Of a stretch of DNA of 64,000 nt, positions 22,227 to 64,000 are shown piece by piece. Source of the stretch: Pseudothauera hydrothermalis (GTDB lineage Bacteria; Pseudomonadota; Gammaproteobacteria; Burkholderiales; Rhodocyclaceae); NCBI RefSeq assembly GCF_003345255.1, contig NZ_CP029331.1:1178001-1242000 (forward strand). The letters run 5' to 3'. The notes under the pieces are model-generated. The model was not told the DNA's origin. It did no database searches and worked only from the letters and a program-made list of their open reading frames with translations. Both the position numbers and the translations under genes were made by a program. Positions within the stretch are counted from its first letter, which is position 1; every line of letters starts with the position of its first letter.

Positions 22227-22321
22227 GTCGATTTCCTTGAAGCAATACAAGGATTATAGAGGGCATGGGAGGGCTGCAATGCATTGCAGCGTGGATCGCG
22301 CTTGCGTAGAATGCGCCCCCG

Positions 22322-22460
22322 TCATCGGGGAGTAGCCGCCCGGCATCGCGACCGGGGTCTGCATCAACAGACTTGTCCGGCAAGGACATGGTGCAGGCAG
22401 CAGGCACGCGCGCATCGCGCCGTGCACCGCCTGGCGAGACCTTTGACCGTGCTGCCCCGC
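22322..22460 (+). ncRNA. yybP-ykoY manganese riboswitch
   Basis: The leader of the GDT1-family exporter carries the conserved parts of the Mn2+ aptamer: CGGGGAGTAGCC at 22326-22337, which starts the closing stem, and GGCGAGACCTTTGACC at 22432-22447, the second metal-binding loop, with GCTGCCCCG at 22451-22459 closing P1 against CGGGG...AGC. Two hairpins lie between. The location fits the known use of this element before alx, mntP and TMEM165/GDT1-type genes. The downstream stretch 22455-22518, including CCGGGGGTG and GGGTTAACGCCGG, probably forms the expression platform. Expression should rise with manganese. Confidence 0.85.
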
Positions 22461-49698: not shown

Positions 49699-50685
49699 GT
49701 CTTAATCCCTTTGAAATCAGGGCAACTGCTTGGACTTAGAAGGAGGCCAGCATGGCCGGAGTGCTTATGTCTTAATCCCTTTGAAATCAGGGCAACTGCT
49801 TGGACGCTTCGGGAACTCGGCATTGCCAAGCACCCCGTCTTAATCCCTTTGAAATCAGGGCAACCGCTTGGACCCACCGTGAGTACGTCGGCCATGGGGA
49901 TGGCCACGTCTTAATCCCTTTGAAATCAGGGCAACCGCTTGGACCCTGCGCCCCGGCGAGAAGCAGTGCAAGTTCGTCTTAATCCCTTTGAAATCAGGGC
50001 AACCGCTTGGACAGATGAGCAGGACAACCCATACCTGCCCCTGGCGTCTTAATCCCTTTGAAATCAGGGCAACCGCTTGGACTCTGAAAATGCAGAAATC
50101 CTATAACTGCGTTGACAGTCTTAATCCCTTTGAAATCAGGGCAACCGCTTGGACTGCGGCCCACAGCGCTACCGTGTTCGGGTGCGCGTCTTAATCCCTT
50201 TGAAATCAGGGCAACCGCTTGGACTGCTCGACATCCCGACCAGCGCCCTGGTTGGCGGTCTTAATCCCTTTGAAATCAGGGCAACCGCTTGGACCGCGAT
50301 ACGTCCGTCAAAACGTCCAGATCGGGGAGTCTTAATCCCTTTGAAATCAGGGCAACCGCTTGGACAGCAATCACGGCCAAGCCTGGCCGCCCCTCGTTGT
50401 CTTAATCCCTTTGAAATCAGGGCAACCGCTTGGACCCGGGCAAAGCGAAAAGCAGCGGGCAACCCTGTGTCTTAATCCCTTTGAAATCAGGGCAACCGCT
50501 TGGACCGACATGCGTTAGCATGCTCACAAAGAAAAACCCGTCTTAATCCCTTTGAAATCAGGGCAACCGCTTGGACTGCGGATGCCGACTGAATTGCTGG
50601 AGGCGGCGGGTCTTAATCCCTTTGAAATCAGGGCAACCGCTTGGACGTTAGGTGGGCTAGGTTCAATCTCTGGCCACGGGTCTTA
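49699..50685 (-). CRISPR. CRISPR array, trailer-side segment: 14 full repeats plus the first 6 nt of the 15th
   Basis: 37-nt repeats beginning GTCTTAATCC and ending CAACCGCTTGGAC on the plus strand; spacers 31-35 nt. Full repeats start at 49699, 49769, 49837, 49908, 49976, 50046, 50118, 50188, 50258, 50329, 50399, 50469, 50540 and 50610, and a broken one starts at 50680. The first two repeats have CAACTGC instead of CAACCGC, marking the old (trailer) end. On the minus strand repeats end in ATTAAGAC, the usual 8-nt 5' tag of type III crRNA, so the array should be read leftwards from the right-hand leader. Confidence 0.98.
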
Positions 50686-51785
50686 CTAACTTTTCAATAA
50701 GTAGTGTCAGCCCAGGATATAGCGGCACTCTGGCTGCCTAAAAAATGACTTCACGAGTTCGGGGAGCTTCTGGATGCTACGCAAAGCACGGAGTGCGAGT
50801 CGCTTCATCTCCTCGGCGCTCTCGACCAACTGGCTCGAAACCTTCCGCTTCACATGAGCCCAGACTGTTTCGTCCGGGTTCAGCTGCGGCGAGTAAGGCG
50901 GCAAATAGAACAACTTGAGCTTGCCGTCCAAGCTCTCGATGTAGCTCTTGACCATCTTTGCCTTGTGAATCGGATGACCATCGACGATCAGAAAGACCGG
51001 TTTCTCGGCATTGAGCATCAAGCGCTTGAGGAACTCGACGAACACTTTCGCACCGACCGAGCCCTCATGCAGCATGAACCGAAATTCGCCCTGCGTGCCG
51101 ACGGCCGAGATCATGTTCAGCGAGAAGCGCCGACCCGTCGCCTGCACCACCGGCGTCCGGCCTTGTGGCGCCCAAGTCGTGCCGGTGTGGTAGTCCGAGC
51201 GGATGCCCGACTCGTCGCCAAAGTAGATCGTTGCTCCGAGCCGCTTGGCTTCAGCGCGAATCGCGGGGTAGGTCTCCGTCTCCCAAGTGCGCACCAGGAC
51301 GGGGTCTTGCTGCCACGCCTGGTAGAGCGGCTTCTGGGCGCTGAAACCCAGGATCTTCATCAGGCGGTGAACCGAGGAGACCGACAGCTCTTTCTTGAAT
51401 TGGCGTTTGATCAAGTGACGAATCAGAGACAGCGTCCACAAGCCGAACTCGAACTTGAACTGCTGCGGGTTGTGGTCACGAACCGCATTGGCAATCCACG
51501 AAAGCTCCTCGGCGCTGAGTTTGCTCGGGCGTCCCGGAATCGGCTTGGCGAGCAATGCGTTCTGTCCGCCATTGGCAAAATCGGCGAGCCACCGGAAAAC
51601 GCTGCGCTCATTCACGCCATACGCCGCCGCGACGCTTTGCACCGTCTGCCCGTCACGTACCGCTTTGACGGCCTGCTGCCGCATGACCTGCAAGGTGTGA
51701 TGATCGAGAGCTCGGCCGTCGGAAAGTCGTTTGCATTTCATAGGCCATATTATCGCTCACATGACACTACTTATGGGAAACTCAG
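50686..51785 (-). mobile_element. IS630-family insertion sequence inside a CRISPR repeat
   Basis: 1100-bp element with imperfect 24-bp terminal inverted repeats, 50686-50709 and 51762-51785, sharing the inner core ATAAGTAGTGTCA. It is flanked by a TA duplication (50684-50685 and 51786-51787), the target preference of IS630/Tc1-mariner elements. Removing the element and one TA restores a perfect 37-nt CRISPR repeat, so the ends are fixed precisely. One intact transposase gene. Confidence 0.95.
50707..51741 (-). CDS. IS630-family transposase
   Basis: 344 residues. N-terminal helix-turn-helix (VQSVAAAYGVNERSVFRWLADF), then a DDE catalytic domain: first Asp in YFGDESGIRSD, second in FLIVDGHPIHKAK, Glu in PPYSPQLNPDETVWAHVKRK. 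Intact frame, so probably active. Transcribed in the same direction as the pre-crRNA. Confidence 0.95.
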   Translation of the reverse strand: MKCKRLSDGRALDHHTLQVMRQQAVKAVRDGQTVQSVAAAYGVNERSVFRWLADFANGGQNALLAKPIPGRPSKLSAEELSWIANAVRDHNPQQFKFEFGLWTLSLIRHLIKRQFKKELSVSSVHRLMKILGFSAQKPLYQAWQQDPVLVRTWETETYPAIRAEAKRLGATIYFGDESGIRSDYHTGTTWAPQGRTPVVQATGRRFSLNMISAVGTQGEFRFMLHEGSVGAKVFVEFLKRLMLNAEKPVFLIVDGHPIHKAKMVKSYIESLDGKLKLFYLPPYSPQLNPDETVWAHVKRKVSSQLVESAEEMKRLALRALRSIQKLPELVKSFFRQPECRYILG

Positions 51786-53017
51786 TAATCCCTTTGAAAT
51801 CAGGGCAACCGCTTGGACTTTGGGAAAGTTAAGACTAGCTCGCGCGATACGGTCTTAATCCCTTTGAAATCAGGGCAACCGCTTGGACGCAGGGGGCCGA
51901 CGAACCTGAGCGGGGCGCGTGGGTCTTAATCCCTTTGAAATCAGGGCAACCGCTTGGACACATCAGCGATGATGACCGATGAAGAGTTCTACGGTCTTAA
52001 TCCCTTTGAAATCAGGGCAACCGCTTGGACCCCGAATTCGGTAGTGTGATCACGTACTTCAGTGTCTTAATCCCTTTGAAATCAGGGCAACCGCTTGGAC
52101 ACGCCTGCGCTGTGATGTGAAGTGGTTTCCACAGAGTCTTAATCCCTTTGAAATCAGGGCAACCGCTTGGACTCGACAAGCATCACGAGTCGCTGGCCGA
52201 GCCGCGTCTTAATCCCTTTGAAATCAGGGCAACCGCTTGGACCATCGGCCTGGCCAGGGTCACGGACACCGATCAGTCTTAATCCCTTTGAAATCAGGGC
52301 AACCGCTTGGACAAAATGATGAATTCCACCGAAATGAATACCGCCGTCTTAATCCCTTTGAAATCAGGGCAACCGCTTGGACTTATTGCATCGAGCGGAT
52401 GACGCTAGATGATCAGTCTTAATCCCTTTGAAATCAGGGCAACCGCTTGGACTCGCAGAATTGTACAATATGGAAGAATGGGGAATGTCTTAATCCCTTT
52501 GAAATCAGGGCAACCGCTTGGACGTGAGATTACAGGGATGAAAGGTAAAACGTGCCTGTCTTAATCCCTTTGAAATCAGGGCAACCGCTTGGACGGTCTG
52601 CTTGGGGCGCTTCGGTTTCACTCGTCGCGTCTTAATCCCTTTGAAATCAGGGCAACCGCTTGGACCTCGCGCGTGGCTCCATCAAGGTCATCACGTTCGT
52701 CTTAATCCCTTTGAAATCAGGGCAACCGCTTGGACTAACACTGAAGAGAAAGAGTTTGAGATTTCGTCTGTCTTAATCCCTTTGAAATCAGGGCAACCGC
52801 TTGGACATGAGGATATTGTTTATCTTTGTATCCGTGATTATGTCTTAATCCCTTTGAAATCAGGGCAACCGCTTGGACAAGGACGAAAGATGGCTGGAAA
52901 GAAGTGTCTAGTCTTAATCCCTTTGAAATCAGGGCAACCGCTTGGACTCCAACGGCAACAAATATCGCTTACACCAAGATGTCTTAATCCCTTTGAAATC
53001 AGGGCAACCGCTTGGAC
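51786..53017 (-). CRISPR. CRISPR array, leader-side segment: the last 33 nt of the broken repeat and 17 full repeats
   Basis: The 3' part of the interrupted repeat occupies 51786-51818. Full repeats then start at 51852, 51923, 51994, 52064, 52136, 52206, 52276, 52346, 52416, 52487, 52558, 52629, 52699, 52770, 52842, 52911 and 52981, with spacers of 32-35 nt. All are identical in sequence. Together with the trailer side the ancestral array had 32 repeats and 31 spacers. This segment lies next to the leader and cas2, so its spacers are the newest. Confidence 0.98.
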
Positions 53018-53144
53018 TGCTCGCCTTGAAAAAGCCTTACCAATCAGTGTGTTGCAGAGGGGGTTCACAAAGATCGGGGTGGTTTCGAGAGCGGATTGTT
53101 TCAAGCTGGGTTCCTCGCGCCCAAGCGCGTGGGATTGTATCACT
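53018..53144 (-). promoter_or_regulatory. CRISPR leader
   Basis: 127 bp between the last repeat and the stop of the downstream-most cas2 gene. Position opposite the degenerate trailer and orientation of the type III 5' tag place the leader here, with pre-crRNA transcribed leftwards. No clear -35/-10 pair stands out. Confidence 0.6.
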
Positions 53145-53492
53145 TTATGAGCTTGTGCTGGGGAGCTTTGGCGCTCGGGCCAGAAGCTGCTGCAGGCTGG
53201 GCGAGGTGGCCGATAGAATCAGCGCGTTGCCGGGCAGGCTACCGCGGCCCAAGGTGTCGATGCTTAGCCGCTCCGGCAACTGATAGCCGCGCACGTCGTC
53301 GCTGCTGGGGTCGATACGGCTGTCGAGGTCGTCCATCAGGCGTCCCATTTGCGCGGCGCTGCCTTCAAAGTGAAAAACCGAGTACTGGACCGGTGTGGCG
53401 TGTTTGACCAGAAATCGATGAAGGCGCGCCAGGCGTTTGGGGTGGGTAATGTCATAAGCGATCAGCCAGCCGCGCGGTGTGTTCAGTGCCAT
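53145..53492 (-). CDS. cas2: Cas2 (first copy, cas2a)
   Basis: 115 residues. The N-terminal beta strand WLIAYDITHPKRLARLHRFL holds the conserved Asp and is followed by the Cas2 ferredoxin-like fold (VQYSVFHFEGSAAQMGRL). It is longer than the second Cas2 by about 20 residues at the C-terminus. Overlaps the end of the cas1-like gene by 10 bp. Nearest cas gene to the leader. Confidence 0.92.
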   Translation of the reverse strand: MALNTPRGWLIAYDITHPKRLARLHRFLVKHATPVQYSVFHFEGSAAQMGRLMDDLDSRIDPSSDDVRGYQLPERLSIDTLGRGSLPGNALILSATSPSLQQLLARAPKLPSTSS

Positions 53493-54289
53493 GCTTCGAT
53501 CTCCCGTGCAAGGTGACGTTTGAGGTCTCCGAGGTGTTGCAACAAACGTGTCGAGTGCTCACGCGCCCAGTTTTCAAATATGTGTACGCTGATTTGGGTG
53601 TGATCTGCGTGGGCGTTGGCGATGTTGCCGGCGTCAAAGTTGAATTCTGCCCACAACAGGGCAGCCAGTTCGTCGGCCAGCGCCAGGTGGCTGGCGTCGA
53701 AGCCCCAGTAGCTCGGTTGCAAGCCTTCTTGGTGCAGGCGGTCGACCACCAGGGCGTGGCACCAGCTTGCGCTTTCCGGGTTGACGTTGATCGGGTGAGT
53801 GCCTTTGTAGACGTATTCCCGTTTTAGGGCTGCAAAGGCGCGTGGGGCCATGGTGCGATGGCCGGTTTTGGCTGCGCGCAGAGCGCAGGCGGTTAGCGTC
53901 TCCAGGCGCCGGCGGGTGATCCAGTTGGCGAACCGTTGCCGCCAGTCGGGTAGCTCCAGGTAGGTTTCGATCAAGGTGGAAAAGGGCTGGTGCGGGGTGA
54001 GCCGGGGGTGTAGCGCGCCGAGCGCATGACCGTAGCCATCCGTCCAAGTAATCGGTATGCCTGCGCGCAGACAGGCGGTCAGTGCGTTGCCGGTCCAACT
54101 GAGGTGGCGGTTGCAGACGATGCGGCACACTCTGGCCAGCGGAAAGCGCAGGGTGGCGCCGTTTGCCGGTTGCAGCACCAGGTGATTGGTGCCGGCGTCG
54201 ATGCGCGCCGGGGACGGGCGGAGCAGGTACAGCGGTTTGCGGGCGGGCAGCGCTGCAGTGGCGCTGTGGCGCTGCAGGCAAATTGTCAT
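53483..54289 (-). CDS. Diverged Cas1-like protein, probably catalytically inactive
   Basis: 268 residues from ATG 54289, two bases after the stop of the canonical cas1; a TTG at 54295 is an alternative. The N-terminal beta domain (YLLRPSPARIDAG...TWTDGYGHALGALHP) and helical C-terminal domain follow the Cas1 layout. However, the metal-binding Glu of canonical Cas1 (GLEGSAARAYF) aligns with Lys156 in FAALKREYVYKG, and the HxxxxGRxSLxxDLxE motif has become GFDASHLALADELA without the His. The frame is intact and closely packed between cas1 and cas2, so it is unlikely to be a decaying pseudogene. Inferred to be a structural partner in adaptation. Confidence 0.75.
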   Translation of the reverse strand: MTICLQRHSATAALPARKPLYLLRPSPARIDAGTNHLVLQPANGATLRFPLARVCRIVCNRHLSWTGNALTACLRAGIPITWTDGYGHALGALHPRLTPHQPFSTLIETYLELPDWRQRFANWITRRRLETLTACALRAAKTGHRTMAPRAFAALKREYVYKGTHPINVNPESASWCHALVVDRLHQEGLQPSYWGFDASHLALADELAALLWAEFNFDAGNIANAHADHTQISVHIFENWAREHSTRLLQHLGDLKRHLAREIEAWH

Positions 54290-54291
54290 GG

Positions 54292-55284
54292 TCAAAAGTC
54301 CTCGTCATTGTCTTCGCCGTCGCCTGAGGCCAGCCACGGTTCGCCTTCGGTCCGTAATTGACGGGCGAGCCGGGTGCAGGCTTGGCGCAGCCAGCGGCGC
54401 GGGGCCGGGGCAAAGCGTTCCCAGTTGGCGTAAAAATGTCCGCGGCCGGCTTTGCCAAGCAGGCAGGCGCCTTTGTCGGCAAAAAAATGTTCGGCGCGCA
54501 GGGTTCCGACGGCGAATTGCTGCCAGATCCAGGCGTCGACGTGTGGACGCAAAGGTTCGATGAGGTCGCAGGCGAGCGATTCTCGCCCAAAGGCGGGGCG
54601 GTGATAGAAACCCAGCAGAGGGTCCAGGCCGGCGGCGTGGGCGGCGCGGACGGCTTCGAAGTGCAGCAGGGTGTAGGCCAAGGACAGGCAGGCGTTGACC
54701 GGGTCGCGGGGCGGCCGACGGTTGCGCCCGGTAAAGTTCAACGCGGGGGCGAACAGTGCGGTGTAGGCGCGAAAGTAGGCGCGTGCCGCGCTGCCTTCGA
54801 GTCCGCGCAGGCGGGCGCTGGAGATGCCGGTTTCGGCAGCCTGGGGGAGCGCATCGGCAAGCTGGCCACAGGCGTCGAACAGCGCTTTGCGCAGGTCTGG
54901 GCGGTATGTTTGCGCTTTGTGCAGCAGGCGGTGTTGGCGGCGTATTTTGGCGATCACCAGTTGCTGCGCCCAGCCGGCGCAGAAGGCGAGGTCCAGGGTG
55001 CGACGGGCCTGTGCCAGGCGTATGGCCGCTTCGTTGTGCGCCGGGCCCAGTACAATGGCCTCTTGCCGACTGGCGCGCGGGCTGAGCAACAAGGTGGTTG
55101 CGCCGGCTTCGGCTAGTTTGATCAATACCGCGGTGTCGATGCGGGTGCGTGCGCCCTGGACGATGACCCGGTCGATCAGTCGCAAGGGTATGGTCTGGCT
55201 GCGGCAGCCGTTTTCAAACAGAGCAAGCGCGCCATCGGTCATGCGGATTTCAAGGTCGGCGCGGTCGAGCAGCAGCGTGGCCAT
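54292..55284 (-). CDS. cas1: Cas1 integrase (canonical)
   Basis: 330 residues from ATG 55284 (MATLLLDRADLEIRMTDGAL). Catalytic metal ligands Glu163 (RGLEGSAARAYF), His228 (GFYHRPAFGRESL) and Asp240/Glu243 (ACDLIEPLRP) are present. Integrates new spacers with Cas2. No reverse transcriptase or Cas6 fusion, unlike some type III Cas1. An acidic tail (SGDGEDNDEDF) ends the protein. Confidence 0.95.
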   Translation of the reverse strand: MATLLLDRADLEIRMTDGALALFENGCRSQTIPLRLIDRVIVQGARTRIDTAVLIKLAEAGATTLLLSPRASRQEAIVLGPAHNEAAIRLAQARRTLDLAFCAGWAQQLVIAKIRRQHRLLHKAQTYRPDLRKALFDACGQLADALPQAAETGISSARLRGLEGSAARAYFRAYTALFAPALNFTGRNRRPPRDPVNACLSLAYTLLHFEAVRAAHAAGLDPLLGFYHRPAFGRESLACDLIEPLRPHVDAWIWQQFAVGTLRAEHFFADKGACLLGKAGRGHFYANWERFAPAPRRWLRQACTRLARQLRTEGEPWLASGDGEDNDEDF

Positions 55285-55288
55285 GGCG

Positions 55289-55573
55289 TTACCCCACGTA
55301 AAAATAGTCGGGATCGGTAGGTCGGACGGCAACGCCCAGTGCGAAGGTGCGTGCGCTGCGGTCAAGACGTAGCAGAAAAAAGCGGTCTTCGGCCTCGTTG
55401 AGCAGCAAGGCCATGTCATGCAGAAGTTCGTGGCGTTCGCTGTGAGTCAGGAACACCTCATGCACCGACTTTTGTCCGCCGGTGGTGTAGCCGCGCACCA
55501 GGGCAAGCGCGGCCGCCAGGCGGCGCGGGTGAGCGATGTCGTAAGCGGCAAGAAAGAAGTCGCGCTGGGACAT
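55289..55573 (-). CDS. cas2: Cas2 (second copy, cas2b)
   Basis: 94 residues from ATG 55573. The conserved FFLAAYDIAHPRRLAAALAL start and KSVHEVFLTHSERHELLHDM follow the Cas2 fold; the C-terminus ends RPTDPDYFYVG. It precedes canonical cas1 by 4 bp. Only about one quarter to one third of positions look shared with the other Cas2, so this is not a recent duplication. Confidence 0.93.
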   Translation of the reverse strand: MSQRDFFLAAYDIAHPRRLAAALALVRGYTTGGQKSVHEVFLTHSERHELLHDMALLLNEAEDRFFLLRLDRSARTFALGVAVRPTDPDYFYVG

Positions 55574-55659: not shown

Positions 55660-56631
55660 TCAGAAGGCGGCATCGAGGGGCAGCAGTTGGTAAGCGCCCA
55701 GTCCCAGGGTGGCGTTTTTACCTACATGCAGCCATTGGCCCAAGTGCAGCCATGGCAAAAGCGCGGTGAGTTCGCCGCAAAAGGTCCAGGTACCGATGGC
55801 GCCCCCCAAAATCATTTCTTGCTTTTGCCGGCTGGAGTAGCGGGACCAGTCTTGCCAGCGCAGGTTGCGCCGGTGTTGCAGCGTGTCAGCAAGCGCGACG
55901 AGCTGGTGCACGTTGCCTACGGCATCGGCTTTGCCGCCGTGAAACTCTGCAAGCAGGCTGATTCGTCGGAGTAAGTCGGCTATGAATTTGCGCGGGGTCA
56001 GTGCGTGAGGGCGCACCGGCTGACCTTGATGTTGCAAGCGCAAAGGGGTGGTGAACCGCAGGGCGATCCGGCGGGTCTGTGCCGGGTAGGGGGCCGCCAC
56101 CAGCGCTTGGGCCGATGCCGCATTGTGGGGGGCGATGGCGGGCGCGCCGGCTTGCCAGATTGGCGTCCATTGCGCTGGCCCGGCCGGGTTGGAGTGTTGG
56201 AGGTCGATTTGTTGCAGGGTGCCGCAGGCGCGTTGGCTACCGATACCTTGTGCAAAGGCGTTTTGTAGCGCACGGCTGATCAGCGGCAGGTGTTCGAGTG
56301 CGCGGCCAATCAGCACCAGGTTGAAGGTGAGCGGATGGCCTTGCGGGATGTGGGCGGTGCCAAAGGGCGGCGGTTCGATGACATAGGGGTTGGGGATGTG
56401 GCTGAAGCGTTGCAGGGCGTGTTGCGTCGGGGCCGGGGCTTCGAAAATCGCCGGGTAGGGGCAGTGGTTGCGTACCGGGCAGGGCTCGCAACGGGGTTGG
56501 CCAGTGAGGCAACTTGCCCGACGTAACGCCGCCCCGAACTGCCCGCGCAGCAGCGAGCCGGCGTATTGCGGCAGCTGCAGCGGTTGGTTCATGCGAAAGG
56601 TGTAGCGATAGCGGGCGAGCGGCAGCGGCAT
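55660..56631 (-). CDS. cas6: Cas6 pre-crRNA endoribonuclease
   Basis: 323 residues from ATG 56631 (MPLPLARYRYTFRMNQPLQL). RAMP-fold protein with the C-terminal Cas6 domain: the region GQWLHVGKNATLGLGAYQLLPLD holds the Gly-rich loop. A cysteine cluster CEPCPVRNHCPYP lies near residue 50. It cleaves the 37-nt repeats to leave the ATTAAGAC tag. One base after the CARF-HEPN gene, so in the same operon. Confidence 0.9.
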   Translation of the reverse strand: MPLPLARYRYTFRMNQPLQLPQYAGSLLRGQFGAALRRASCLTGQPRCEPCPVRNHCPYPAIFEAPAPTQHALQRFSHIPNPYVIEPPPFGTAHIPQGHPLTFNLVLIGRALEHLPLISRALQNAFAQGIGSQRACGTLQQIDLQHSNPAGPAQWTPIWQAGAPAIAPHNAASAQALVAAPYPAQTRRIALRFTTPLRLQHQGQPVRPHALTPRKFIADLLRRISLLAEFHGGKADAVGNVHQLVALADTLQHRRNLRWQDWSRYSSRQKQEMILGGAIGTWTFCGELTALLPWLHLGQWLHVGKNATLGLGAYQLLPLDAAF

Positions 56632-56632
56632 A

Positions 56633-57811
56633 TCAGGAAAGTTCCCGGATGAAGGTGTTGAGCTGTGCGTGCAAGGCGTGCTCATCGTTGAGCAGCTTGG
56701 CGATTTCGTCGTTGTGCGAGCGCTGGCCATGGGCCAGTGCATTGCGCAGCCATTCCAGTCGTTTGAATAGTCGGTTTTCCTGCCCGAGTGCCCTGCGCAC
56801 CTCGTCCCGCTCTTCAAAGTTTCCGGGATTGCCCCGGCGGCGGTTGACTTCGCGGGTGATGAGCCCTTCCAGCAGAAAAATGGCTGCACGCAAGTAGTCG
56901 CGTCGGCCGAGATAGGCGCGGGCCAGTGCCAGTTCGCGCTCACCGCGCTCTGCTTTGCGCACCCAGGCCACCCGGGCTTCCAGTTCGGGACGGAACAGGC
57001 TGCCGAGCGGGCCGGTGTGCGTGGCAATCGCCTCTAACGATGCGCTGAGTTTTTGCCGTGCGCCCTCCAGATGATTGACCCGTTCCAGAAACGCGGCCGA
57101 TTCAAGGATGCGCGCGCGCCCTTCAGGCATGCCGTCCTCGGCCAGCAGGCGGGAAAACACGCTGTAGTCGCCGTCCTTGTCGTAGCTGGACAGGGCGTCG
57201 ACCCAATCGAGCATCTTGAGCATGCCTTTGAGCCGCAGCACCGGTACTTCGCCAGTGGCCGGGTCCTTCATGTCGTAGGCGCCATAAAAGATGTCCTCGA
57301 TCTCGACATGGCGGACACGCGAAAGATAGCGGGCCGCGATCAGCGCGAGCATCGGCAGGTGCCGGAAGGAGTGGGTCACGTCGATGGCGATGTGTTCGCC
57401 TTCGCTCAGGCAGGCCGCCAGTTGTCCGAGCAGCGCCGCCTGACCGGCCTCATCGCGGGCGTAGTCGATCAGCACGCAGTCGACCGGGTGTCCGAGGCGT
57501 GTGGACAGCCTGCCGGCATGGTCTTGCAGAAGTGCCGCATCGACGGTGTCGGAATCGACCGCATCGATGAGTTGCAGGAGTCCATCGTCGTCTGGTTCGG
57601 CCTGACCGGATTCGCGCTCGAAAAACACATCCCACATGCTGCCGGAGGTGCCGACCAGGATCAGCCGGTCAGGCTTCAGGTAGTCGTCGAGCGCCATGCC
57701 GAAGAAGGGGACTTCGCGCATGAACTTGCTATCGAAGCGGTATTTTGCCGTGCGGTAGCCGCTTCGAGGATCGTATTGGCCCTTGCCTAGAAAGCTGATC
57801 AGGGTGCTCAT
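56633..57811 (-). CDS. CARF-HEPN ribonuclease, TM1812/Csx2 family
   Basis: 392 residues. N-terminal CARF domain: RLILVGTSGSMWDVFF near residue 50 and the DxTH-type motif AIDVTHSFRHLPMLALIAARY (about 145-165). C-terminal HEPN domain with the RNase motif Rx4H in WLRNALAHGQRS (about residue 365). In type III systems, Cas10-made cyclic oligoadenylate binds the CARF domain and switches on HEPN RNA cleavage, giving collateral defence. Lies between cas6 and csx16. Confidence 0.9.
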   Translation of the reverse strand: MSTLISFLGKGQYDPRSGYRTAKYRFDSKFMREVPFFGMALDDYLKPDRLILVGTSGSMWDVFFERESGQAEPDDDGLLQLIDAVDSDTVDAALLQDHAGRLSTRLGHPVDCVLIDYARDEAGQAALLGQLAACLSEGEHIAIDVTHSFRHLPMLALIAARYLSRVRHVEIEDIFYGAYDMKDPATGEVPVLRLKGMLKMLDWVDALSSYDKDGDYSVFSRLLAEDGMPEGRARILESAAFLERVNHLEGARQKLSASLEAIATHTGPLGSLFRPELEARVAWVRKAERGERELALARAYLGRRDYLRAAIFLLEGLITREVNRRRGNPGNFEERDEVRRALGQENRLFKRLEWLRNALAHGQRSHNDEIAKLLNDEHALHAQLNTFIRELS

Positions 57812-57833: not shown

Positions 57834-58130
57834 TCAGGATTGCTGAGCTTTGATCACATAGCCTTCGAGCCGGGCGCCATAGGCGGCGAGCTGGTCGGCC
57901 GAGAGTTCCTGACCGCGCACTTCGGGCGGCAGGTCGAGCGACAGATGCAGGTAACGCCCGCCGCGGGCGCAGACCGCGGCCGCCAGATGCACCGGCAGCG
58001 TGCCGATCACGGTGTCGCCCGGATTGAGTTGTGCTGGATCGAGATGGGCGATCTGCCGGTCGACGGTCAGCCCCTGACGCCGCGCCCACTCGATGGCGCC
58101 GGGGTGGCGGGTGACGAAGTAGGTGGTCAT
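57834..58130 (-). CDS. csx16: CRISPR-associated protein Csx16 (VVA1548 family)
   Basis: 98 residues from ATG 58130: MTTYFVTRHPGAIEWARRQG, DTVIGTLPVHLAAAVCARGG and YLHLSLDLPPEVRGQELSAD are the diagnostic blocks of Csx16. The family is confined to type III loci and has been proposed as a ring nuclease that removes cyclic oligoadenylate. Start overlaps the cmr6 stop by 4 bp. Sitting beside the CARF-HEPN effector, it fits an off-switch role. Confidence 0.88.
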   Translation of the reverse strand: MTTYFVTRHPGAIEWARRQGLTVDRQIAHLDPAQLNPGDTVIGTLPVHLAAAVCARGGRYLHLSLDLPPEVRGQELSADQLAAYGARLEGYVIKAQQS

Positions 58131-59338
58131 GCCGATTCGCCCCGTAGCGCGGCCATATGCAGCTTCTTGCGCGCGTCCTTCCAGTCGTCCTTGCGGTCGA
58201 GTTTCTCGACCACGGCCGGCAGCCACTGGGCAAGCGCCTCGGCCAATTGCAGGCGGTCCGCGGCGCTCCAGCCCTGTGCTTCGTCCAGGGCCTGTCTGCT
58301 CAGCTGCAATGCGACGGCATAGAGGCCACTGCCCGGGTTCAAGGGGTCCTTGCGGCCGCTTGCCTGTTTTTTCGAGCACTGCTCGACGAATTTGGCGATC
58401 GCGCGTGCTTGGGGGCTGAGCGCGGCCGACTCGGCTTGGCGCGCCTGCTGGGCTTGTGCTTCGGCTCTTGCGGCGGCCTCCTGTTCCAGCTTGCGGCGCC
58501 GGGCCGGGTCCTGAGCGAGCCGTCCGTAGCCCACGGCGCTCTTCGCGCCAAAACCCAGCCATTCGCCGGCCAGTTCGATTGCGGCCGCGAGTAGCGCGCG
58601 CCAGCGCTCGCGCAGCGCGGCGGCTTCGGCGGGGATTAGCGCGGGGTTGCACTGCACATGCAGGGTGCATTCGCAGCCGGCCGCCACCGCCAGGAAGGGG
58701 ATGGGGTTGGGCTGCTCGTTGGCGTGCGGGCTGCCGTTGCCCTGCAGATAGCCGCTGTGGTGCGGGGTCATGATCTCGACGGTAAGCAGCGGGACCTTGT
58801 CCCTGGCGGGCTGGAAGAAGAGATCCCAGAACATCAGCGCGCCGCGGGTGCGGATGGCGTTGGTGTCGCCGGGCTCGGTTTCCAGGCCGAACAGCACATC
58901 AATCGCGTGCTGATCCCAACCGGCGGTGTCGCCCCAGTCGCCGCTGGCCAGTTCCTCCGCGGCGCGGCGGATCACGCCCTTGACACCGCTGCCGGCCAGG
59001 TAGGGCAGGCCGTGCGGATTCAGGAAAGCGAAGCCGTTTTCCAGCGGATGCTCGTTGCCTAGGCCGGTGGCCAGCGGCGCGGTGAGGCGGGCGGGGTGGG
59101 TGAATACCAAGTCCCCGAGGCTGGCGGCCAGCACGCTCTGGCGCTGGCACAGCGCCTTCAGGGCGGCGCGGCTGTGGCTGGGCAGCGCGCCGGCCACGGT
59201 TATGAAGGCGGGGGTCTTGTTGCTGGGCTTGCGCCAGTCGGCTTCCCAACCGTCGAAATACAGCCCGAAGCGGTGGCCGGGCGGGCAATCGTCGAAGCGG
59301 TTGTTGCGGGTGAGGTAATCGGGCAGGGCGAAGCTCAT
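58127..59338 (-). CDS. cmr6: Type III-B RAMP protein Cmr6
   Basis: 403 residues, RAMP fold with GSGVKGVIRRAAEEL (about residues 118-132) and the Gly-rich GFGAKSAVGYGRL (about 262-274). The usual Cmr6 is about 250-340 aa; here a charged helical extension of roughly 120 residues (KLEQEAAARAEAQAQQARQAE...) follows the core. Cmr6 caps the Cmr filament near the 3' part of the crRNA. Confidence 0.92.
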   Translation of the reverse strand: MSFALPDYLTRNNRFDDCPPGHRFGLYFDGWEADWRKPSNKTPAFITVAGALPSHSRAALKALCQRQSVLAASLGDLVFTHPARLTAPLATGLGNEHPLENGFAFLNPHGLPYLAGSGVKGVIRRAAEELASGDWGDTAGWDQHAIDVLFGLETEPGDTNAIRTRGALMFWDLFFQPARDKVPLLTVEIMTPHHSGYLQGNGSPHANEQPNPIPFLAVAAGCECTLHVQCNPALIPAEAAALRERWRALLAAAIELAGEWLGFGAKSAVGYGRLAQDPARRRKLEQEAAARAEAQAQQARQAESAALSPQARAIAKFVEQCSKKQASGRKDPLNPGSGLYAVALQLSRQALDEAQGWSAADRLQLAEALAQWLPAVVEKLDRKDDWKDARKKLHMAALRGESA

Positions 59339-59348
59339 GGCGATGTCC

Positions 59349-59744
59349 TCACAGCGCGGCCGCGAACTGGCGGATCCAGCGCAGGATGCGCAGGGCTTCG
59401 TCGGTGGCCTGGCGGTATCGGTCTGGCTGGGCGCGCAGCAACAAATCCATCATCGGCTGAAATCCCGGGTCCTGGCCGTTGCCGCCTGCGCGCTTCATGA
59501 TCCAGCGGCGCAGCTGAGCAGCCAGCGCGCGGTGATGGTCCTTGTTTTTGTCTTGATAGAACGCCAGCGTCTGCATCAGGCCGTTGTTCATGATCAGCGC
59601 GGGGGCCGCTTTGGCGAGGTTGCGGTACTCGTCGCCGGCGAGCTGGACGCCTTCTTGCGCGCACTGCCAAGCAAATTGCGCGCGCTGCTGCTCCAGCGTG
59701 GTCCGGGTGGCGGGGGTTTTGTTCTTTTCGGTGGTCGTGCTCAT
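59349..59744 (-). CDS. cmr5: Type III-B small subunit Cmr5
   Basis: 131 residues, all helical: TTLEQQRAQFAWQCAQEGV near the N-terminus and LIMNNGLMQTLAFYQDKN, the Cmr5 signature. Forms the inner filament contacting the target RNA. Ten bp upstream of cmr6. Confidence 0.93.
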   Translation of the reverse strand: MSTTTEKNKTPATRTTLEQQRAQFAWQCAQEGVQLAGDEYRNLAKAAPALIMNNGLMQTLAFYQDKNKDHHRALAAQLRRWIMKRAGGNGQDPGFQPMMDLLLRAQPDRYRQATDEALRILRWIRQFAAAL

Positions 59745-59758
59745 CGCTGTTCTCCCGG

Positions 59759-60685
59759 TTAGCGGCTGTTGCCTCGGATGACCCGCGCGGCAACCAGCCC
59801 GCGCCCGGTGGTGGCGTCGCCGCCGATCTGCAAGATCTGGCCGTCGATCGCCTGGGTGACATGTTGCAGCACCGCCTCGGCCTCCAGTTCGGCCTTTTCG
59901 CTGCGCTCGCGGCTTGCCATCAGGCTGCCCAGCATCAGGGTTTCGGGCGGCAGGTTCTCGGTGTAGAAAAGGCCGCCATCATCGGCCGCGCCGGTCTTGT
60001 TGTCGATGCGCACATGGGGTTCGACCATGGTGGCGTTCTTGGCGAACCAGGTGAAATCCTCGTCGGCCAGCAACACCAGGTCGCGGGCGAACTTGTCGCG
60101 GAAATAGTCGTGGGCCTCACCGGCGGGCAGGGCATGCTTGGCCAGCCAGCCTGCCATGGCTTTGAGCTTGTCCTCCTGGGCGCGGCTGTTGTGGTACTCG
60201 AAGGCTTCCAGATGCAGCGTGTTGTCGGAGAGGAGTTCTGGGTTGGCCGCGCAGCATTCGTTGGCTGCGAGCGTTGCCGGCACGGCGGGCACGTCCTGGA
60301 TGCCGAGCTGGGCGAGCAGCCGTGCGGCGCGGGCTAGCGCATGGGCGCTGGTGGCATACACATAGCCTTGCTTCACACAACGCACCGGGAAGGCGACCAG
60401 CTGGGCATCACCCAGGCTGATGGCGCCAGCGTGCAGGTTGCCGGATTGCGATTCGGGACCGAACAGCCGGTCGAGCAGCTTTTCGCCCTTTTCGCCTTCG
60501 ATCCAGCCGGGCAGGGCATGAAAGCGGTGACGGATGGCGCCCTTCAGGCCCGAGCCGGGGAATACCGGGTGTTCGCAATGGCGCTCGCGGGCGATGGGGT
60601 TGTCGATCAGGCCGAAGGCTTGGCCTGCGCCCATATGGACAGGGCTGGTGGCATACAGGAACAGGGCGGCGTGGGCTTGGAACAT
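59759..60685 (-). CDS. cmr4: Type III-B backbone RAMP nuclease Cmr4
   Basis: 308 residues from ATG 60685 (MFQAHAALFLYATSPVHMGAG). The loop GLIDNPIARERHCEHPVFPG holds the Asp used for target RNA cleavage, followed by GSGLKGAIRHRFH, and the C-terminal Gly-rich motif is QIGGDATTGRGLV. Several copies build the filament and cut target RNA every 6 nt. Its upstream neighbour is a PIN toxin rather than cmr3. Confidence 0.94.
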   Translation of the reverse strand: MFQAHAALFLYATSPVHMGAGQAFGLIDNPIARERHCEHPVFPGSGLKGAIRHRFHALPGWIEGEKGEKLLDRLFGPESQSGNLHAGAISLGDAQLVAFPVRCVKQGYVYATSAHALARAARLLAQLGIQDVPAVPATLAANECCAANPELLSDNTLHLEAFEYHNSRAQEDKLKAMAGWLAKHALPAGEAHDYFRDKFARDLVLLADEDFTWFAKNATMVEPHVRIDNKTGAADDGGLFYTENLPPETLMLGSLMASRERSEKAELEAEAVLQHVTQAIDGQILQIGGDATTGRGLVAARVIRGNSR

Positions 60686-60705
60686 GGGTGAGTCCTCGAT
60701 GCGAT

Positions 60706-61104
60706 TCAAAGGGTGACGGTGCGCAGATGGCCGCTGGCGGCAGCATCCAGGCGATGATCGTTGGTCCAGAATTCGTCACAGCCGGCTTCGATGGCCGCTG
60801 CCAGGTGCAGCGCATCCGGGGTTTTCGGGCGGTGGCGGGCGCGCAGTTCGGTGGCCAGTTCGAAAACAGAGCGAGAGAGCGCAGCCCAGAACAGCCCGGG
60901 TGAGGCGAAGAAATGCTCATAGCGCCCGAGCAGGGATGCGTCCTGCAACCGTAATCGACCGACACGACATTCGAGCCGGGTCAGTTCGCTGACCGCCAGT
61001 TTGGGGTAAGCGCTGCGCACCCAGGCTTCGTGCAGGCGTGAGGCAAATTCGGCATGACGCTCGACCGCGTAGATCACCATGCAGGTGTCGGGATAAACAA
61101 GCAT
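60706..61104 (-). CDS. VapC-like PIN-domain ribonuclease toxin
   Basis: 132 residues. PIN active-site acids Asp6 (VYPDTC), Glu40/45 (VSELTRLEC), Asp97 (KTPDALHLAAA) and Asp116 (WTNDHRL). VapC toxins cut tRNA or rRNA. The ATG overlaps the antitoxin stop by 4 bp (coupled). Embedded between cmr3 and cmr4 in the Cmr operon, where it will be co-transcribed with the interference genes. Confidence 0.92.
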   Translation of the reverse strand: MLVYPDTCMVIYAVERHAEFASRLHEAWVRSAYPKLAVSELTRLECRVGRLRLQDASLLGRYEHFFASPGLFWAALSRSVFELATELRARHRPKTPDALHLAAAIEAGCDEFWTNDHRLDAAASGHLRTVTL

Positions 61105-61355
61105 CAGTCTTCATCTCCCCAGGCGTTACGCTCTTCGGCGATCTGGGCGTCGATCTCTTCCCGGGTACGCCGGCTGGGCGGCAGGGTCTCAAGCCAGTTG
61201 AACAAGGCCTGCAGGCTATCATCGCTGCTCGGCTGCGGCTCGATCACTTTGACAGCGACTTCGACTTGCAGGCGCTGCGAAGGGAAGTCGTCCGGCAAGG
61301 TGATTTCAAGGTGGCGCTTGGCGTCTGTTTCGGCAAAGGTGCGATATAGCTGCAT
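61104..61355 (-). CDS. VapB-like antitoxin
   Basis: 83 residues starting MQLYRTFAETDAKRHLEITL. The C-terminal motif REEIDAQIAEERNAWGDE is common in antitoxins paired with PIN toxins. No clear AbrB/RHH DNA-binding domain can be seen, so autoregulation is uncertain. Located 47 bp after cmr3, the largest gap in this part of the operon, which may hold its own promoter. Confidence 0.82.
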   Translation of the reverse strand: MQLYRTFAETDAKRHLEITLPDDFPSQRLQVEVAVKVIEPQPSSDDSLQALFNWLETLPPSRRTREEIDAQIAEERNAWGDED

Positions 61356-61402: not shown

Positions 61403-62542
61403 TCAGTTCCAGTGCGCAAGCAGACAGGCATTGAAGCCTTCGGCGCAGCGGGCGGGGTCGGGGCAGGGCAGGCCGTCGTGCTGCAGGGCGTCGAGCGCGG
61501 CCGGGTCGCCCTGGAAATCCTCCAGCCAGTACACACTGCCGGCGGGTGCGGCGCGTAGCGCCGGCTTGGGCTGACGGCGGGCCAAGTCCCAGCCGGAGAC
61601 GGTCTCCAGCCGGGGCACGGCGGCACAGACCAGCCGCGCCGAGGCACCATGGAAATGCCAGCGGTTGTTGCCATCCAGACCGGGCAGGCGCCAGCCTTCC
61701 GGGAAAATCCCCGGGCTTGTGAGCAGCAGGCGGAAGCGCCCGGCGCTGGCCAGCGCGGCGCTGTCGATGCGCGGTAAGGCGCAGTCGATCGGACGCACCC
61801 GTGCGGCGTGCCCGTCGCCGCCAAAGCGCAGCAAACCGTCTTTGGGCAGTACGCCGTCGGCACCCTGCACCCGTGCGACGAAGGCGACGCCGGGTTTGAG
61901 CGCAATGGCCTCGCTGGTGTAGAGCTGACCTTCGGCCACGGTGGCTTTTCCGGCCTCAAGCGCGATGCCCAGGCGTGAGTCGAGCGTCCACAGCTCGGAA
62001 CTGGAGAGCCAGTGCCCTTTTTGCTTGTCGAGTGGATCTCCGCGCTGCCAGGCGCCAATGCCGGCGGCTGTGAGCCACAGCCCGCCCTTGGGTTTGCCGG
62101 CCTCGGGTTGGCACAGGGTAGGGGTGAGCGGCAGCGGGTGGCTGCTGGCCAGGGCCGGGTGCAGCGCGGTGGGTTGTAGCGCGGTGGCGCGCTCCTGCTG
62201 GTCGATGCTGAGGTCGGCGGGCAGCGGCAGCAGCGCTTCGAAGCTGTCCTTGCCGGTTTTGCGGGCGAGGCCGAAATGCGCGATGCGGAAGGCGCCAGGC
62301 GCGTCCACACTGCCCAGGCTGGCGGCCAGCGGCCCTTCCAGCCGGATGCTGTCCGCGGCGAAGGCGGCGGGGTCGATCTTGGCGTCGGCCAGCATGCGGC
62401 TACGCAGCGCGCCGGCGGCCACCGAGGGCCAGGGCGGCATCAGCGCTTCGCCATGACTGCCGGCGTCGGCAAAGAGTTTGTTGCCGCGCAGGATCAGCAC
62501 GTCCAGTGGTTCGATCAGCAGGGTGTGTTCGGCATGAGGCAT
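61403..62542 (-). CDS. cmr3: Type III-B RAMP protein Cmr3
   Basis: 379 residues: LLIEPLDVLILRGNKLFADAG and MPPWPSVAAGALRSRML at the N-terminus, characteristic of Cmr3, and a central DSRLGIALEAGKATVAEGQLYTSE segment shared by RAMP proteins. Cmr3 with Cas10 binds the 5' tag of the crRNA. 20 bp after cmr2. Confidence 0.93.
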   Translation of the reverse strand: MPHAEHTLLIEPLDVLILRGNKLFADAGSHGEALMPPWPSVAAGALRSRMLADAKIDPAAFAADSIRLEGPLAASLGSVDAPGAFRIAHFGLARKTGKDSFEALLPLPADLSIDQQERATALQPTALHPALASSHPLPLTPTLCQPEAGKPKGGLWLTAAGIGAWQRGDPLDKQKGHWLSSSELWTLDSRLGIALEAGKATVAEGQLYTSEAIALKPGVAFVARVQGADGVLPKDGLLRFGGDGHAARVRPIDCALPRIDSAALASAGRFRLLLTSPGIFPEGWRLPGLDGNNRWHFHGASARLVCAAVPRLETVSGWDLARRQPKPALRAAPAGSVYWLEDFQGDPAALDALQHDGLPCPDPARCAEGFNACLLAHWN

Positions 62543-62562: not shown

Positions 62563-64000
62563 TCAGCGGTTCGGGTTGGCACGGCTTTCGCGGGCGAGGA
62601 ATTCGGCCACGGCCAGCACATCGGCGATCACACTGCCCGGATCAGTATCGGCCAGCCGCGGGTGCAGGGCGAGGGTGGCAAGCTTGTCGCCGAATTCGTC
62701 GCCCTGGTCCTCACGCGCGCCTTGCCGCTTGAGCCGATAGGCCAGATTGCGGGCAAGCAGCGCATGCAGCGCGGCTTTCTCCATCTGCACCGGCAGATGC
62801 GGCAACCAGCCTTGCGTCACATAAGCTGCCTTGCGCGAGGTGTCGTCGCCGGCAAAGAGCGCGGTGAGGCTGGCGAGGATTGTCATCGGCGAGCCGTCGA
62901 GCGTGGGTGTTTCTCCCTCTTTGGGCGGGTCCAGCCGCCATGGCAGGGTCAGCTCGGTGGCGCCGCCGCCGCGCTTCAGAAGCGTGATTGCGAAGGCGTC
63001 GCGCCCGCCTTTGTCTTTGGCGCGTTTTTCGGCTGCGCGCAGCCGCCGCAGCACCGCGCCGAGCGGGGCACTGTGGTGGGCGATCACCGCGCCGGCGCTG
63101 GCGGTGGCGTATTCGCCCATCAGGCGCAGCAGGCGGCCATCGAGCAGCGCATGGCCACCGCCCAGCTCGAGGCCGGTCATGTCCAGGCCGAGCGATGCGA
63201 CCAGTGCACCCGGTACCGGCAGCCCGCCATAAGCCGCGCGCAAGAGCGTCAGGCAAGCCAAGAGATCGTCGACCGCCACCAGCGCCATCACATCGTCGCC
63301 GCCGGCGTAGATCAGCTTGCCCTTGCAGCGGTTTTCCACGATGTCTTGCACCAAGGTCAGCGCGAAGCCGTTGAGCGCGCCGGAGATCGCCATGTGGCGG
63401 CTGGGCGAGACGGCGCGCGGGGCGGCCAGATATTCGGCGAGTTCCCGGCGGTTGAAGTGCGCATTCAGATGGTTGCGGATCTGCGGATGGAAAGTGTTGC
63501 GGGTGGTGAGCGGATGCGCCTGGCTGCCGCCCGAGATCCACGCGCCCATGTTGTCGCCGTCGAGCAAGATCAGCGCGTAATAGGCCTCGGGTTTGTCGCC
63601 GAGCAATTTGCGCACGAGCTCCGCGCTTTCGTTGCGCGCTTCGGGGTCGTCGGAGCTGTCGTTTTCCATCAGCGCGGGCAGCACGCGGGCAAGCCGGCGT
63701 TGTTCCGGGGTGAACTCATTGCCCCGCATCAGCTTGTGTATCAGCCGGCGCGGCAGGGCCGCGTAGTCCAGCGCACCTGCATGCTCGGCCTGGTCGGCCT
63801 TGACCAGCAGATCGAGCCCGGCCTGGCCGATGGGCGCTCCCTGTTCCAGCCAGCGCTCCAGCGAGGTCGACACCGCCAGCGTGTGGGTGGAGATTACGAA
63901 GCGGCGCACATCGAGGTTGCAGCGCTTCAATTCGTGCTCGACGAACCAGCGCGGCCACAGGCGCTTGAGCATCGCCAGCGCCGACAGGTGTTCGCCCTTG
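62563..64000 (-). CDS. cmr2: Type III-B Cas10/Cmr2, C-terminal part (N-terminus beyond right edge)
   Basis: At least 478 residues visible; the frame remains open to position 64000 through KGEHLSALAMLKRLWPRW, so the Met at 63972 is internal. The palm domain carries the GGDD motif (KLIYAGGDDVMALVAVDDL, plus strand about 63290-63310), required for cyclic oligoadenylate synthesis, and a first palm-like GDNMGAWISGG. The HD nuclease domain, if present, lies outside the window. Main subunit of the Cmr complex. Confidence 0.95.
   Translation of the reverse strand, partial: KGEHLSALAMLKRLWPRWFVEHELKRCNLDVRRFVISTHTLAVSTSLERWLEQGAPIGQAGLDLLVKADQAEHAGALDYAALPRRLIHKLMRGNEFTPEQRRLARVLPALMENDSSDDPEARNESAELVRKLLGDKPEAYYALILLDGDNMGAWISGGSQAHPLTTRNTFHPQIRNHLNAHFNRRELAEYLAAPRAVSPSRHMAISGALNGFALTLVQDIVENRCKGKLIYAGGDDVMALVAVDDLLACLTLLRAAYGGLPVPGALVASLGLDMTGLELGGGHALLDGRLLRLMGEYATASAGAVIAHHSAPLGAVLRRLRAAEKRAKDKGGRDAFAITLLKRGGGATELTLPWRLDPPKEGETPTLDGSPMTILASLTALFAGDDTSRKAAYVTQGWLPHLPVQMEKAALHALLARNLAYRLKRQGAREDQGDEFGDKLATLALHPRLADTDPGSVIADVLAVAEFLARESRANPNR

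Follow-up and report, generated by a model that had tools for sequence, protein, structure and literature searches.

The CRISPR locus examined here lies in a stretch of 64,000 nucleotides from Pseudothauera hydrothermalis (hereafter the window), and raises the question of what a second Cas1 that apparently lacks an active site, together with a second Cas2, might contribute to a type III-B adaptation module. To our knowledge, every Cas1-Cas2 integrase known to date is symmetric and is built of one Cas1 and one Cas2; this symmetry hampers the dissection both of the role of the non-catalytic Cas1 and of one-way spacer insertion. With the two Cas1 roles in separate genes, each could be mutated alone.

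Four genes make up the module, all on the minus strand and at, or a few bases from, the positions given in the initial annotation. Read along transcription, they are cas2a (55289..55573, 94 aa), cas1 (54292..55284, 330 aa), the diverged second cas1, here called cas1' (53483..54289, 268 aa), and cas2b (53145..53492, 115 aa), which overlaps cas1'. The products of cas2a and cas2b match Pfam CRISPR_Cas2 at 2.7e-6 and 1.2e-13 respectively, and Cas2a has a GGQKSV motif and an aromatic C-terminal tail in the alignment of its relatives. A probable leader of 127 bp (53018..53144, minus strand) lies between cas2b and a minus-strand CRISPR array of 37-bp repeats, oriented on the basis of the ATTAAGAC 3' end of the reverse-complement repeat and of slightly degenerate repeats at the opposite end. 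The array has 32 repeats in total and is interrupted by a transposase-like gene (50707-51741; IS630 type by eye), which separates a cas-proximal part (51782..53017, 18 repeats of 37 bp, spacers of 32-35 bp) from a distal part (49699..50646, 14 repeats). The repeat at 51782, the first of the cas-proximal part, adjoins this IS630-type gene and has four mismatches. The cas-proximal piece of the array gave no phage match.

On the far side of cas2a, and on the same strand, lie cas6 (55660..56631; PADLOC Cas6, 4e-100), a gene for a csx1-type CARF-HEPN effector (56633..57811; TIGR02221, 4.8e-66; PADLOC CARF_HEPN, 5.9e-154), csx16 (57834..58130; 133 bits to the annotated Csx16 of Allochromatium tepidum), cmr6 (58127..59338; TIGR01898, 9e-26), cmr5 (59349..59744; TIGR01881, 2.9e-16), cmr4 (59759..60709; PADLOC Cmr4, 6e-58), cmr3 (61403..62542; TIGR01888, 92.7 bits, slightly below the cut-off of 100.4) and cas10/cmr2 (62563..64000; PADLOC Cas10, 1e-43), which is cut by the end of the window and in the genome encodes 986 aa with GGDD present. 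Cas10/Cmr2, Cmr3, Cmr4, Cmr5 and Cmr6 are thus all encoded in the operon, and the type III-B setting proposed earlier is borne out by NCBIfam (Cmr3, Cmr5, Cmr6, Csx1) and by PADLOC (Cas6, Cmr4, Cas10). Between cmr4 and cmr3 (60706-61355) are two small overlapping ORFs which, by eye, resemble a PIN-domain toxin-antitoxin pair.

The partner Cas1 (Pfam Cas_Cas1, 8.6e-65) has an intact active site. Glu163, His228 and Asp240, which had been named as its retained catalytic residues, are invariant in 30 of 30 blocks, but we take the third metal ligand to be more likely Glu243 than Asp240, by analogy with solved Cas1 proteins; position 243 is E in 28 of the 30 blocks and D in two. Cas1', by comparison, passes the curated Pfam Cas_Cas1 (PF01867) cut-off weakly (33.3 bits vs 22.3). 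It also matches PADLOC profile PDLC01185, 'Cas1, diverged variant, second in the loci', at full length (1-246/246, E = 4.4e-108), and its position second after cas1 is constant in 32 genomes. All 30 relatives of Cas1' match PDLC01185 at E <= 1e-3, and 29 match a general Cas1 profile. The existence of this PADLOC profile means that the family is already known by label; the label itself places a second Cas1 in the locus but gives no function, partner genes or mechanism, and no paper describing the family was found in the open-access literature that we searched.

In a profile-profile comparison with the partner Cas1 family, Cas1' aligns along nearly its whole length (probability 98.4, E = 8.5e-15), with columns 3-316 paired with 4-262 so that both Cas1 domains are spanned and a gap falls around the catalytic Glu. 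We relied on this alignment; MAFFT, given the two Cas1 proteins of the window alone, misaligned them. Pfam, PADLOC and the profile-profile comparison agree that the 268-aa protein is homologous to Cas1. It has lost the catalytic Glu and His motifs, as first suggested, although not by the simple replacement of Glu by Lys156 that had been read from the sequence: the stretch with LRGLEG is a gap in Cas1', the alignment over the following catalytic segment (conserved RRPPRDPVN) is weak and short, and K156 is unconserved, with K in seven of 30 sequences. The RGxE(G/S) motif is absent from all 30 Cas1' proteins, GFxH-like strings occur in four of them, none at the active-site position, and residue 210, which aligns with E243 of the partner, is most often Arg (10/30). 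The Glu, His and acidic metal ligands of an active integrase are therefore present in the partner Cas1 and missing from Cas1', which, judged from its sequence, is a diverged and catalytically dead Cas1. Its best conserved positions (Y21, P50, R53, L70 and C73) are all in the N-terminal domain, the domain that forms the dimer in known Cas1 structures. A single-sequence AlphaFold model of Cas1' was unusable (pLDDT 41).

What could a dead Cas1 do in an integrase? Ordinary Cas1-Cas2 contains four identical Cas1 subunits, two of which catalyse strand transfer at the two ends; the other two take no part in catalysis and line the repeat channel as its walls (PMC12259127). For a type II-A complex, a contact is described between the C-terminal strand of Cas2 and the N-terminal domain of a single Cas1 in each dimer (PMC6620040). 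The literature also describes Cas2-Cas1 as a ruler. Canonical Cas1-Cas2 of types I-E, I-F and II-A thus resembles the present module in its active Cas1, ferredoxin-like Cas2 and neighbouring array, and in that the known complexes also contain active and inactive Cas1 subunits; in those systems, however, active and inactive subunits are copies of one polypeptide and Cas2 pairs with itself, whereas here a dead Cas1 and a second Cas2 have genes of their own. We consider it fairly probable that the products of all four genes form a single heteromeric integrase, which supplies the type III-B array with spacers and in which Cas1' fills the non-catalytic Cas1 seats. The role of the inactive Cas1 would most likely have been handed to a separate protein, Cas1', and each end would be occupied by a Cas1:Cas1' pair in which Cas1 joins the strand and Cas1', via its retained N-terminal beta domain, holds the dimer, Cas2 and DNA. 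Cas2a and Cas2b may pair as a heterodimer; the length of prespacers and the fit to leader and repeat would be determined by Cas1' and Cas2b, which could diverge freely. We infer all of these protein contacts and the stoichiometry, as well as any control of orientation by the four-gene integrase. Retention of the N-terminal domain by a protein without an active site is what would be expected if the wall seat has its own gene. A rather unlikely alternative is that Cas1' is a specificity or regulatory partner which binds Cas1-Cas2 from outside and replaces no Cas1 subunit, helping to recognise leader or repeat, to deliver prespacers or to couple acquisition to the Cmr effector; against this, Cas1' aligns over nearly the whole length of Cas1, and conservation concentrated in the dimer-forming domain would better suit a subunit seat.

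To establish how widely the block occurs, we searched at four ranks around the window's genome (family, order, class and phylum) and in the class to which a second centre belongs, all within the Pseudomonadota (partly overlapping draws, comprising roughly 1,000 different genomes). Cas1' was found in 32 genomes from at least two classes: the window's own genome, two from its family, four from its order, 19 from its class and six from the second class. The order cas2a-cas1-cas1'-cas2b on one strand was conserved in 31 of the 32, and in the last the contig breaks off ahead of cas2b; csx16, csx1 or cmr genes adjoin the block in most of the larger loci, and a CRISPR array is usually present. The same block in the same order in 32 genomes argues that the dead Cas1 is a long-kept working part. 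A block-type Cas1 (E < 1e-120; the next best Cas1 is at about 1e-73) occurs in 19 genomes of the class sample. Cas1' is complete in 18 of these and reduced in the other to an N-terminal remnant of 67 aa. In this last locus the remnant KALYIVGPQDTKVILNGPAL lies between cas1 and cas2b (L117:2478-2678), where the loss is still visible. A tblastn search of plasmids and phages found no Cas1'; a scan of viral contigs gave no match with a Cas1 query and one ordinary Cas1 locus with a Cas1 alignment as query.

We calculated dN/dS to assess the constraint on Cas1'. Three close pairs gave 0.14, 0.17 and 0.17, and three more distant pairs 0.42-0.49; Cas1' is under purifying selection and is constrained less than Cas1, and the higher values of the distant pairs count against the heteromeric integrase. 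Cas1' is also the fastest evolving of the four proteins, with a mean pairwise identity of 22% compared with 45% for Cas1, as a partner acting from outside might be. Fast evolution, loss of the active site and loss of the gene in at least three lineages (see below) are likewise what a decaying, functionless duplicate would show, yet we hold such decay to be very improbable given the dN/dS of the three close pairs, the fixed gene order and frames of normal length in 31 genomes. The pseudogene reading of Cas1' was rejected on the close-pair values and on the frames, which are open apart from the copy cut by a contig end in the 32nd genome. Two Cas1' profile matches span a stop. The initial annotation had raised the possibilities that the 268-aa protein falls outside Cas1 or occurs only here as a decaying copy; the profiles place it within Cas1, and it occurs beyond this genome. 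A conserved block with an active and a dead Cas1, two diverged Cas2 and purifying selection fits the heteromeric integrase envisaged at the outset.

A pair of congeners, G534 and G574, provides a natural experiment on the functions of the two halves of the block. Coming from upstream, as far as the 3' part of cas1, their DNA is 87-100% identical in the segments compared, mostly at least 96%; identity then falls to about 52-80% through cas1', cas2b and the leader, with a breakpoint near the 3' end of cas1. At the protein level, identity is 96% for Cas1 and 99% for Cas2a, compared with 76% for Cas1' and 68% for Cas2b. We found that spacers in the adjacent array, compared at the same repeat length and register, are longer in G534 (33.8 +/- 1.4 nt, n = 32) than in G574 (29.2 +/- 1.5 nt, n = 50; p = 7e-14); most other arrays adjacent to the block have spacers of around 32-35 nt. 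Spacer length thus tracks Cas1', Cas2b and the leader and not Cas1 and Cas2a, and from this we infer that Cas1' and Cas2b may causally set it; these results need to be read with caution, as this is a single pair in which the leader, a few repeat bases and other cas1 genes in both genomes (that of G574 being split over two frames) are confounders. The proposal that the module influences substrate choice is supported in part, by this one comparison and with the leader changing along with Cas1' and Cas2b. As a tentative extension, which we consider possible but short of probable, the integrase would be asymmetric, with Cas1:Cas1' dimers on Cas2a:Cas2b and the Cas1'/Cas2b side setting spacer length and possibly the orientation of insertion. 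The ruler could in that case be exchanged while the catalytic half stays as it is, and G534 and G574 lend themselves directly to a swap experiment on spacer length.

The same comparison bears on the alternatives. The position of cas1' and cas2b on the array side, and their change along with leader and repeat in G534 and G574, would suit a specificity partner acting from outside. The divergence boundary in L012/L013, which parts cas2a-cas1 from cas1'-cas2b, might instead indicate two complexes sharing a locus, Cas1 and Cas2a forming the integrase and Cas1' and Cas2b having another job such as non-catalytic prespacer binding. This we judge improbable: cas1 and cas1' are nested between the two cas2 genes, and both cas2 genes are kept in two plasmid modules without Cas1', as well as in a sister group with no Cas1' detected in its short flanks.

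We inferred trees of the four proteins to place these variants. Block Cas1 forms one group (support 94), with a sister group (support 99) that includes Allochromatium tepidum pAt1 and three modules (L127, L129 and L130) with two Cas2 genes beside a single Cas1; these modules differ from the block in their order, cas2-cas2-cas1, and in that no Cas1' was detected in their short flanks. The Cas2 tree separates 2a from 2b and places the Cas2 proteins of the window in these respective clusters; the proteins are short and the tree is weak. Sister-group Cas2 proteins occur in each cluster, which makes an older date for the Cas2 duplication probable, and since the sister modules have two Cas2 and no detected Cas1', the pairing of Cas2 genes probably predates Cas1'. 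The combination of two Cas2 genes and one Cas1 seen in L127, L129 and L130 may merit separate attention.

All Cas1' proteins fall in a single clade (support 100). A topology uniting this clade with block Cas1 was not rejected and scored better than the free search (p-AU 0.86), with long branches. Plasmid modules of Sphaerotilus sulfidivorans and Aeromonas media have the order cas2a-cas1-cas2b, without Cas1', and their nesting within the four-gene clade indicates that the loss is secondary. Counting these two modules and the remnant locus, Cas1' has, on the evidence of trees and gene content, been lost at least three times. Such losses indicate that Cas1' is dispensable or replaceable and count against its service as a subunit of a heteromeric integrase. 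On the Aeromonas media plasmid (pMC64A), a gene for a Toprim-domain protein (L017:11260-12291) separates the cas2a-cas1-cas2b module from the cmr operon, and Cas1, Cas2a and Cas2b have long branches. Distance matrices of the four proteins are correlated (Mantel r 0.47-0.64, p = 0.0005), as would be expected for a co-inherited unit, contact and shared ancestry not being separated by the Mantel test.

It had also been suggested that the module might acquire RNA-derived prespacers. This found no support, as one reverse transcriptase (RT) query matched nothing in the 35 loci scanned. The module is similar to RT-Cas1 modules in its type III association, and an RT-Cas1 locus (L011) also adjoins two Cas2-like ORFs; it differs in its unfused Cas1 and in that the scan of four-gene loci detected no RT.

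Two further features of the window and its genome were recorded. The genome that holds the window has one more partial match to Cas1 (G000:C1:2991690-2991980), so that another adaptation module may exist there. A manganese riboswitch (yybP-ykoY, RF00080, 63.7 bits) is present at 22315-22433 of the window.
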